Shown here one piece after another: positions 3,402 through 63,255 of a stretch of DNA of 64,000 nucleotides; the first letter of the stretch is position 1, and each line of letters starts with the position of its first letter. Source of the DNA: Candidatus Minthosoma caballi. GTDB lineage: Bacteria; Bacteroidota; Bacteroidia; Bacteroidales; Bacteroidaceae. Under the pieces are notes generated by a model. The model did no database searches and had not been told where the DNA came from. It was given only the letters and a program-made list of their open reading frames with translations. A program made the translations under genes and the position numbers. The stretch covers positions 1 to 64,000 of the forward strand of contig JAGHVC010000155.1 of assembly GCA_018064505.1 (NCBI GenBank). Reading direction: 5' to 3'.

Positions 3402-3600
3402 TATATTTGCACACAGATTTGGAAACGAGGCGGCAACCTGCTGCTTTCGTGCAAGGGAATCAGGTGAAAGACCTGGACAGTTCCTGCTGCTGTAACTCCT
3501 AAGTTTTGAAGAGCTGGCACACACAAGTCACTGCGATAAGCGGGAAGACGCCGACTCAAGGAGAAGTCAGAATACCTGCCAAAGTCTGAACAATGGCAAA
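3402..3600 (+). promoter_or_regulatory. Cobalamin riboswitch with own promoter (TATATTTG 3402-3409)
   Basis: AAGGGAATCAGGTGAAAGACCTGGACAG...CACTGCGATAAGCGGGAAGACGCCGACTCAAGGAGAAGTCAGAATACCTGCC matches conserved cobalamin riboswitch blocks including the B12-box region. Confidence 0.88.
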
Positions 3601-21040: not shown

Positions 21041-23041
21041 TCATCCATTCATGCTTATCAGCAGTTCCTCATTGTTCTTAGTGTTCTTAAGCTGCTTTGT
21101 GAGGAACTCCATCGCTTCGATAGGAGTCATGTCTGCCAAGTGATTGCGCATCACCCACATGCGGTTGAGAGTAGTCTGATCCTGCAGCAAGTCGTCGCGA
21201 CGAGTAGAAGAAGCAGTAAGGTTGACTGCAGGGAAAACGCGCTTGTTGGCAAGAGCTCTGTCAAGCTGCAGTTCCATGTTGCCCGTTCCCTTAAATTCCT
21301 CAAAAATAACTTCGTCCATCTTCGAGCCAGTGTCGATGAGGGCAGTAGCGATGATAGTGAGTGAGCCGCCATTCTCAATGTTGCGCGCAGCACCAAAGAA
21401 ACGCTTTGGCTTGTGCAGTGCATTAGCATCCACACCACCCGAAAGCACCTTGCCGCTTGCAGGGCTGACAGTATTGTATGCACGAGCCAAACGAGTGATA
21501 GAGTCGAGGAAAATAACAACATCGTGTCCGCTTTCCACCATTCTCTTTGCCTTCTCAAGCACGATGCCAGCAATCTTAACATGATTCTCTGCAGGCGCAT
21601 CGAATGTAGAAGCAATCACCTCTGCATTCACCGTGCGAGCCATGTCTGTGACTTCCTCAGGTCGCTCGTCGATGAGCAGCATCATGAGGTAAGCCTCAGG
21701 GTGATTAGCAGCAATGCTGTTGGCAATATCCTTCATCAGCATTGTCTTACCAGTCTTTGGCTGAGCCACGATGAGCGCACGCTGTCCCTTGCCGATAGGG
21801 GAGAAGAGATCAACAACTCTTGATGACCAGCTGTCGTTGAATCCCTTGCACAGCTTAAACTTCTCATCAGGGAAGAGTGGGGTGAGGAACTCAAAGCCCA
21901 CGCGATCACGCACTCTTGAAGGCTCGCAGCCATTTATTCTTTCCACGCTTGTGAGAGGGAAGAACTTTTCGCCATCCTTTGGAGGGCGCACGAAGCCATC
22001 CACAACATCGCCAGTCTTCAAGCCGTAGTGCTTGATTTGCTGCAAGCTAACATACACATCGTCAGGAGAAGGCAAATAGTTATAGTCAGAACTGCGCAAG
22101 AAACCGTAGTTGTCCACAGTTTCCAGCACACCGCTCACTTTGATAATATTGTCAAAGTCATAAGGCTTCTCCTTCACAGCTTTCTCCTTCTTCTGCATCA
22201 TCACCTCAGGCTCATAATCCGATTGAGGCATTGACACCCTCTCGTAATACTCAGCCGCTCTTTCCTTGCTCTCCATTTCCAGTTTTCCGAAGAAATCCAT
22301 CGGACTAGTCACTTCTTCCAGAGCAGGAATATCCTCAATGATGATGAAGTCAGCCTCGCCCGACACAGCCTCAGCCTTCTTGTTAATGATGATCTCTTTA
22401 TGCTCAGCATTATCAGCAAAAGCTTCCTCAGGCACAACAAAGTCATTGCTCTTCACTTCCGTCTCCTCCGCAACCTCAGCCTTAGGCATCTCCTCCTCAG
22501 CTGCAGCAGCATTTTCAGCCACATTGCCAGCAGCCGCCTCCTCAGCCTTCTCAGCCTTAGACTTTCTTCCACGCTTCTTAGGCTCCTCAGCAACCGTTGT
22601 TTCAGCCACATTGCCAGCAGCCGCCTCCTCAGCCTTCTCAGCCTTAGACTTTCTTCCGCGCTTCTTAGGCTCCTCAGCAACCGCCTTATCAGCCTCAGCC
22701 TTAGCCTCTTCAGCAGCCATTATAGTCATTCTGTTTTTCTCCTCATCCGACAAATCAGCATACAGCGAATCATCCTTCGTCACCATCACCGTCTTGTCCA
22801 CTTTCTTAGCCTTAGTTTGGCTGGCAGTATATACTCTGTCCACGCTCTTCACTCTTGCGCGCTTGCGAGGAGCCGCCTTTTCAGTCGAAGAATTGGAAGC
22901 AAAGCTGGTAGCCTGCTCATCTATAATCTTAAACCAAAGCTCCTCCTCGCTCATGCTGGCAGCCTTCTGCACGCCAAGCTCAGTAGCGATTCCAGCAAGC
23001 TCCTCTTTAGATTTTGCCTTCAGTTCGTCTAATTTATACAT
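21041..23041 (-). CDS. rho: Transcription termination factor Rho with large N-terminal low-complexity insertion
   Basis: Start [47 protein letters not shown]; insertion with 2 x [23 protein letters not shown]. Confidence 0.95.
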
Positions 23042-23283: not shown

Positions 23284-23883
23284 TTATTGTATTGAAGCAT
23301 TAATGCTATCAATATAATTCAGCACATCCTCTCGTCCCAATTTATTAGCAGAACTTGTGATGAAATAAGGAGGCAGCTCCTCCCATTGCTCCTTCAGCAC
23401 ATTCAGATACTTCTCCGCAAACGGCTTCACTTGTGCCGGTTTCAGCTTATCAGCCTTAGTGAAGATGATGCCAAACGGCACGCCATTCTCTCCCAGAAAC
23501 TCCAGAAACTCCAAATCCTTAGCTTGAGGGTCATGTCGGATATCAATCAGCACAAACAAGCAAGTCAGCTGCTCACGATCCAGCACATAACGCTCAATCA
23601 TGTTCTTCAGCTTTTCCATCGCCTTCTTGCCCCTCTGCGCATACCCATAGCCAGGCAAATCAACAATATACCATGATTCATTAATCAGGAAGTGATTTAT
23701 GCACATAGTCTTGCCCGGAGTGGAAGAAGTCAGAGCCAAACTCTTCCTTTCCGTCAGCGCATTAATCAGCGACGACTTGCCCACATTGCTTCGTCCAATA
23801 AACGCATACTCAGGCAGCCCCGTCTGCGGACACATATCCTGTCTCGGGCAGCTGCCAATATACTTAGCCGATGTAATCTTCAT
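23284..23883 (-). CDS. engB: Ribosome biogenesis GTPase EngB/YihA
   Basis: [24 protein letters not shown]...[18 protein letters not shown]; start [10 protein letters not shown]. Confidence 0.93.
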
Positions 23884-24047: not shown

Positions 24048-24350
24048 GCCTTTCACGCTTTATCGCTTACGCCTTGTAAGCCATATTGCTTACGCCCGAT
24101 AAGCGATCAAGCTTGACGGGCGCAAGCTTTTCACCCTCCGCTTTGTACCTCTCAAGAGGTGTGACTCACACCGGTATAGATGATGTGACTCACATCGGCA
24201 TAGGTGGTGTGAGTCATAACACTTAAGGCGTACAAGGCATACGCCTGCAATGGTGCGCCTTGCAATCTCACGGAGGCGAAAGGCATACGCCCAAAGATGT
24301 GCAAGGCATGCGCTTGTGACAGCGTCCTAGGACGATGTCTTTCCCTCAAA
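24048..24350. repeat. Intergenic heptamer array in a 23 (locally 24) bp register
   Basis: Unit starts 24048 GCCTTTC, 24071 GCCTTGT, 24094 GCCCGAT, 24140 GCTTTGT, 24163 GACTCAC, 24187 GACTCAC, 24211 GAGTCAT, 24234 AAGGCAT, 24257 GCCTTGC, 24280 AAGGCAT, 24303 AAGGCAT. Confidence 0.75.
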
Positions 24351-24645: not shown

Positions 24646-24826
24646 TTAGCGCCCCTTTAGCTGGGGGAAGTCAATTAATGAACATCTAAGAGCAGGGTGT
24701 AGCCAATTGCCATGCGGGGTGTGGAGTGATTTTATAGGAATTATAAGCTTCGGATAATTTTTTTGAAAAAAGTTGCACCTATGGTTAGTTTTTTGAGCGT
24801 CTGAAAGGTATAGTGATAAAAGAGTG

Positions 24827-25309
24827 ATGGGAAGAAGTGAAATCCGACAGCTATTTATGCAGCATTATGCCAAGATGTACAGGGTGGCGCGCACCATTCT
24901 GTATGATGAACAAGAAAGCAAGGATGTGGTCAGCGACATCTTTGAAAGATTGCTTCATGGGCAAATCGTGCTGCAGCCTGACACTGTAGAACACTATCTG
25001 CTGACAAGTGTTCGCAACCAGTGTATCAAGCGCATCCACCATGAGACGCTTAAACGCCAGCTGCAACTTCATCATTCATCGGAACAACTTTGTGAGGAAT
25101 CGGAAGATGAGAGACTTGCAGATGTCATGGAGTTTGCCTTAACGCATCTTGATGAACGCGACCAACGCATCTTCAACCTTCGTTTCACGGAAGGTTTTAG
25201 CTATGAAGAAATTGCCCAAATGGAAGGCATCAGCAAGGTTGCCGTATGGAAACATCTGTCACGCCTGATCAACAGAATTAAAGAACATTTTAATCCTACG
25301 GAGAAATGA
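24827..25309 (+). CDS. ECF-type RNA polymerase sigma factor
   Basis: RQLFMQHYAKMYRVARTILYDEQESKDVVSDIFERLL...NLRFTEGFSYEEIAQMEGISKVAVWKHLSRLI. Confidence 0.9.
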   Translation: MGRSEIRQLFMQHYAKMYRVARTILYDEQESKDVVSDIFERLLHGQIVLQPDTVEHYLLTSVRNQCIKRIHHETLKRQLQLHHSSEQLCEESEDERLADVMEFALTHLDERDQRIFNLRFTEGFSYEEIAQMEGISKVAVWKHLSRLINRIKEHFNPTEK

Positions 25310-47430: not shown

Positions 47431-47676
47431 TGTTTCGGTGTTTATTGTTTTGATTGTTAGTATATTCGCTTTATTCGCTTTAAGAGAATACGCTTATTCG
47501 CACGGTGTGAATAACAGTAGTCATAGAGGTTGAATGAAGGTATCCATACGGCAAGAATAACCGCATTCACTGGAAGAGTGTTTTGTGAATACTCCTGCGA
47601 TTGTGTGGAGTGGGGGAGAGTGATTGTTTTGAGGCATCTTTAGGTGGTGTTGGTGGAAATGAATTTAGTAAGAAAG

Positions 47677-62894: not shown

Positions 62895-63055
62895 ACCTTA
62901 TAAAGCATGCACTTTACGCCTTGTATTGTGCGTGCTTTTTGCCTTGTGAGTTTCTAGACACATGCCTTGTGAGTTCCTGTACGCGTGCCTTGTGCGATGC
63001 GAGTGACACTCCTTATGCGACGAGAAAGCTATGCCTTGTGTGTTGAGAGTTTTTT
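62895..63055. repeat. Seven-unit 23-bp periodic heptamer array (consensus GCCTTGT)
   Basis: ACCTTAT 62895; GCCTTGT 62918, 62941, 62964, 62987; TCCTTAT 63010; GCCTTGT 63033. Confidence 0.88.
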
Positions 63056-63255
63056 GATATGCGTTTAGAGAAGAAAAAACTATAGGCGTAACAATAGCCA
63101 TGGTTTGTCGTATGGGTATTGCTAATCAATCATAAAAATGTCGGAAATGAGTTAAAAAATGTTCTTTTCTCTTAAATGAACAGAAAAATGTTTGGAGAGT
63201 TCGACAATTGTTTGTATATTCGCTATTGAAACCTAATACAAACACCTAATTGACT

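Follow-up and report, generated by a model that had tools for sequence, protein, structure and literature searches.

The array at 24048-24350 of the window, by which the whole stretch of 64,000 nucleotides that was analysed is meant, consists of three cassettes placed end to end, each with three modules on a 23-24 bp grid. The lattice, the palindromes and the cassette structure are established; so are the spread of such repeats over dozens of intergenic sites, a wording specific to each species, and a conservation that is stronger in modules than in linkers. We give an even chance to the reading that the array is a composite of dispersed intergenic cassettes whose modules are phased dimer-binding sites, spread by copying and then maintained. 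The source assembly (3.21 Mb in 245 contigs) is 88% complete. Its Rho protein is nearest to the Rho of Phocaeicola, Parabacteroides, Bacteroides and Prevotella, which makes it a genome of the Bacteroidales.

A preliminary description of the array placed unit starts in 23-bp steps at 24048 (GCCTTTC), 24071 (GCCTTGT) and 24094 (GCCCGAT), followed by 24140 (GCTTTGT), in 24-bp steps at 24163 (GACTCAC), 24187 (GACTCAC) and 24211 (GAGTCAT), and again in 23-bp steps at 24234 (AAGGCAT), 24257 (GCCTTGC), 24280 (AAGGCAT) and 24303 (AAGGCAT). All of these words are present at these positions, base for base. Among lags 15-60 the best lag for 24048-24325 is 23, with 38% matches, and none of 2000 shuffles scores as high.

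The first cassette (A, 24048-24121, no strand assigned) has a pitch of 23 bp and consists of four 5-bp linkers (GCCTT at 24048, GCCTT at 24071, GCCCG at 24094 and CGGGC at 24117) around three modules of 18 nt each (24053-24070, 24076-24093 and 24099-24116). The unit at 24117 had been called degenerate. In fact it reads as GCCCG, the linker at 24094, in reverse complement, and these linkers are able to pair around the intervening module. This last module and its two opposed linkers make up an extended hairpin, CGCCCG-A-TAAGC-loop-GCTT..-CGGGCG (24093-24122, no strand assigned), in the single-stranded DNA fold of the stretch (z -3.7). Sequence related to cassette A occurs at other loci of the same genome (L083, L074, L195, L190 and L098).

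The second cassette (B, 24148-24228, no strand assigned) contains three GGTGTGASTCACACC-type palindromes at a 24-bp pitch and belongs to a family dispersed throughout the genus. Its TGASTCA cores lie at 24162, 24186 and 24210, and its inverted ends are CCTCTCAAG...CTTAAGG. The third (C, 24234-24307, no strand assigned) again has a 23-bp pitch, with four linkers (AAGGC at 24234, GCCTT at 24257, AAGGC at 24280 and AAGGC at 24303) around three 18-nt modules. The 24-bp steps are explained by cassette B being a separate family with its own pitch; both periods of what had been described as one 23/24-bp array are correct, but its 24-bp portion belongs to another family, placed between two 23-bp cassettes. 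At locus L083 (348 bp, 70% identity) cassettes A and C stand around another three-module middle cassette, which indicates that the cassettes combine in mosaic fashion.

Two further lattices lie in the window. A sister array (62895-63037, plus strand) carries GCCTT-type linkers, all in the same orientation, at 62895, 62918, 62941, 62964, 62987, 63010 and 63033. Its anchor and period are those of the array at 24048, as had been proposed: lag 23 is again best (57% matches in 62895-63060; 0/2000 shuffles as high). The other lattice (47463-47590, no strand assigned) is spelled with other words, GAATAAC and TATTCGC, and has 46% matches at lag 23, a level reached in 0/2000 shuffles.

In this genome the unit consists of TTAYGCCTTRTA and a variable part. 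The pattern GCCTTGT-N(14-18)-GCCTTGT has 28 matches genome-wide, all of them at 23 bp where 21-25 was permitted, and the backward control has 0; with two mismatches allowed, the same pair gives 132 matches in this genome versus 19 in the control. Each of 44 other genomes of the genus has 0-3 matches, with mixed spacing and little above control. Chance or base composition as the source of the arrays is ruled out by the backward-pattern controls and the shuffles. The suspicion that the two arrays first seen belong to a family proved sound, with at least 30 more arrays elsewhere in this genome and intergenic lattices of 21-24 bp in related genomes; an isolated pair of arrays whose period is lost in relatives was not what was found. 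Whole arrays of 100-110 bp are 75-90% alike among loci of this genome, and were therefore copied and did not arise independently. In other genomes, 30 stretches contain exact GCCTTGT triples; most of these are unrelated 23-mers in tandem that the query picks out. Such array-selecting queries also returned tandem 23-bp GCCTTGT arrays, often with palindromic spacers, from phyla that are not related, namely from Treponema/Spirochaetaceae (L049, L061, L062, L065 and L067) and from Ruminococcus (L042/L044/L060).

Across 38 genomic stretches, 89/100 neighbours in the same orientation are separated by multiples of 23 bp, and 23/24 neighbours in opposite orientation by 27, 50 or 19 bp, i.e. on the lattice, so that the motif does flip on register. 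Given these flip distances, the arrays are most simply read as near-palindromic modules of ~18 nt alternating with 5-nt GCCTT/AAGGC linkers on a lattice fixed at 23 bp, and this description replaces that of a simple heptamer array with free spacers. The shared anchor, the period and the on-register flips of the preliminary description are retained, but the repeating unit, instead of a heptamer, is a near-palindromic module with a short linker. In GCCTT-family modules, position pairs 4/13 and 5/12 are the top two among 153 and covary (p 0.0002 each; 0.0002 and 0.0012 after clustering of related modules).

The B family, searched for as GTGWSTCACACC-N(6-9)-GGTNTGASTCA, occurs in 17/45 genomes of the genus with up to 83 matches (controls 0), and in 0/234 genomes sampled from 29 further genera of the same taxonomic family. 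All 20 copies retrieved from a sister species consist of exactly three modules, spaced 24/24. These copies, all from one species, have the inverted ends GCCTCAAAACAGG...CCTGTTTTGAGGC, i.e. terminal inverted repeats of the kind that define a MITE, and no consistent target-site duplication is evident among them by eye. The TGASTCA core is invariant in 96/96 modules (part of it fixed by the retrieval pattern in two of every three) except at the centre, where G and C are about equally frequent. No compensatory pairing is seen at ±4 in B modules. The linkers are variable, with a limited vocabulary used in both orientations, and the elements fold as one long hairpin (z -9 to -10). The presence of B follows the EngB tree, with 4 changes versus 10.3 when shuffled, so the family is mostly inherited. 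Many B elements of one genome (G006, L215-L234) lie between GTACAAAWTGACCAA direct repeats ~125 bp apart, and related outer sequence is found in another (G015).

Eight orthologous pairs of B elements are alignable between two sister species. The 24/24 spacing is kept in all, with 0 linker indels and no linker inversion. Counted by eye, the modules changed at 3/336 non-centre sites (0.9%) and the linkers at ~10/144 (~7%); linkers and flanks thus drift while modules remain nearly unchanged. The centre shows a G/C exchange in 5/24 orthologous modules, also counted by eye. An assembly artefact is ruled out by the occurrence of these elements in corresponding locations of two different assemblies.

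The window array is flanked by divergent genes, an EngB/YsxC-type ribosome-binding GTPase (23287-23883, minus strand), which starts 165 bp to its left, and an ECF-type sigma factor (24824-25309, plus strand). Retention of the array at the engB locus in relatives is ruled out: no lattice was seen beside engB in 29 genomes of the genus, the closest EngB being 81% identical. The GCCTT arrays of this genome are intergenic and occur in tandem, convergent and divergent gene pairs, several besides the window array being divergent. Convergent gene ends account for 11/20 B elements and, more weakly, 7/23 GCCTT arrays, compared with a background of 14%. Arrays from Prevotella show no such bias (5/19 versus 21%).

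The closest known system is BrickBuilt of Porphyromonas gingivalis, the only close relative turned up in the literature searched. It is a strictly intergenic, species-restricted minisatellite/MITE with a 23-nt unit, AGAYCATARTATCCTCTCRTRTG, at 19 loci; its direct repeats, without flips, number up to 22.8 units between a leader and a tail, are predicted to form long stem-loops, and end in IS5-like terminal inverted repeats, GAGACCTTTGCA (Klein et al. 2015, PMC4596501). The present arrays share with it the order (Bacteroidales), the 23-nt unit, the intergenic position at many loci, the restriction to a species and the prediction of long stem-loops. The two best dyads computed for the published unit lie at 9.0 and 20.5, and their separation of 11.5 is that of the two-dyad lattice described here. 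As regards the unit sequence, this dyad geometry is all that agrees; the unit itself is unrelated to TTAYGCCTTRTA plus a variable part, and the present cassettes mostly have 3-4 modules, with flips, whereas BrickBuilt can run to more direct units. Within 295 kb around the arrays the BrickBuilt terminal repeat has 2 near-matches where 1.3 are expected, which is no enrichment.

REP elements and BIMEs (bacterial interspersed mosaic elements) are interspersed extragenic palindromes with regular spacing, alternating orientation and a mosaic of modules and linkers. BIMEs are the closest functional analogue of the present arrays, which are likewise many-copy extragenic palindromes in both orientations and a mosaic of module and linker types. 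However, the present modules are shorter (15-18 bp) and their copies per genome number in the tens. The REP tags GTAG and CGTC are not found in the consensus sequences, as read by eye. The only match to a RAYT (Y1 transposase) in this genome, 88% complete as assembled, is a sub-cutoff one of 21.3 bits, and G015 is the sole B-positive genome with a strong match. RAYT does not track the B family or the arrays, and RAYT mobilisation was rejected on that ground. The elements resemble MITEs in being short, intergenic, multicopy and non-coding with inverted ends, but differ in that no parent transposase was found. A known RNA family is ruled out, Rfam matches in the window being limited to one tRNA and one cobalamin riboswitch, and so is phage or plasmid carriage, the array having no match in phage or plasmid sequences.

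The constant pitch, the free linker sequence, the invariant core and the tolerance of flips fit recognition of duplex palindromes by a dimer, and the lack of compensation at ±4 in B modules is expected if sequence and not structure is recognised. On this view each module would be a putative duplex target of a dimeric protein, and the spacing of about two helical turns would put neighbouring modules on nearly the same face of the DNA. Some mobilising activity may have copied the cassettes to new sites, where they would then have been passed on by descent and kept in position, in the manner of enterobacterial BIMEs. Neither a binding protein nor a transposase was found for the arrays, and no empty site came to light. 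The covariation at 4/13 and 5/12 and the long B hairpins count against the dimer-site model and fit a structural role, and the convergent bias of B elements and, less markedly, GCCTT arrays fits a role at transcript ends, the Prevotella arrays being without it. These features would suit REP-like elements whose hairpins, in RNA or in single-stranded DNA, slow exonucleases or mark transcript ends, chiefly at the ends of genes, with the lattice a by-product of tandem stems. This seems somewhat unlikely: independent hairpins would not predict linkers of fixed length whose sequence is free, B modules keep an invariant core without compensation, and neither the divergent setting of the window array and several others of the same genome nor the Prevotella arrays conform to it.

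It is unlikely, to a greater degree, that the arrays are functionless debris of MITEs or minisatellites that a transposase moved in trans, with recent copying as the only source of constraint. The description of BrickBuilt as a MITE with IS5-like ends (PMC4596501), the species-specific amplification and the recurrence of the composite at L083 with a different middle cassette are consistent with such debris, but between orthologues the divergence lies in linkers and flanks and hardly touches the modules, the 20 B copies show no consistent target duplication, the BrickBuilt ends are not concentrated near the arrays, and the RAYT/Y1 transposase does not follow the B family. Linkers in both orientations on register, together with the exchange of G and C at module centres, could suggest invertible sites, where site-specific recombination would turn linkers around between the palindromic modules. 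The centre exchange is also open to explanation by tolerated substitution or hairpin-templated repair, however, and with 0 inversions among the alignable orthologous pairs this reading is very improbable. A guide-RNA array of the CRISPR or TIGR type, called to mind by the short constant word, variable spacers and fixed period, is scarcely credible: a 23-bp unit, spacer included, is too short, and there are dozens of small scattered arrays and not one locus. CRISPR arrays, by comparison, lie next to cas genes and have repeats of ~24-48 bp and unique spacers, and TIGR units yield 36-nt guides with box C/D motifs (PMC12045711). No Nop-domain (Tas) protein was found in this genome, the controls being positive.

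Lattices of similar pitch extend beyond the genus and are found between genes in many Bacteroidales of gut and mouth, with a different spelling in each species. In an any-period search of sampled Bacteroidales, which is a survey of small samples with genes called by a simple longest-ORF rule and no census, 66/109 periodic intergenic segments have a period of 21-24 bp, while there are 0 in E. coli (~20 kb of intergenic sequence) and 0 in a small sample from Shinella. Genomes of the genus that are negative for B carry lattices spelled with other words. A module resembling AAAAGCAATGCTTTT has 101 matches in 200 kb of Prevotella sp. oral taxon 299 F0039; 38/45 close module neighbours lie at 22 bp, and the 21 arrays most commonly have three modules. 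(NC_022111.1, 1.77 Mb and labelled a plasmid, carries rho and looks like the Prevotella chromosome.) Parabacteroides distasonis has three 22-bp lattices in 50 kb, and Bacteroides finegoldii and Phocaeicola together have one segment only of period 21-24. In this survey the 21-24 bp arrays do not exceed other periodic segments in best-dyad score, and palindromy is therefore not established for every such array; a detector for strong-palindrome triples was too strict, giving 2 matches.

That a 22-24 bp geometry of palindromes is retained while its spelling differs from species to species points to a single mode of recognition whose specificity changes quickly. Tentatively, and with rather less than even confidence, phased palindrome triplets may form a widespread intergenic class in Bacteroidales, recognised by related dimeric proteins that differ in specificity from species to species; the system would organise the chromosome or mark transcript boundaries, with BrickBuilt as its only member so far described. 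Bacteroidales intergenic DNA is so far poorly explained, and BrickBuilt, hitherto described only from Porphyromonas, would find its place in a wider class.

Other features of the window include arrays of 8-bp words (AGTTTTTG and AACCTTAA) at 611-787, with similar ones at intergenic sites in other genomes of the genus (L148 and L176) and elsewhere in this genome (L191). The cobalamin riboswitch given by Rfam lies at 3411-3597 (60.7 bits). An 87-bp tandem duplication with 98% identity is found at 22513-22683, in the N-terminal part of rho.
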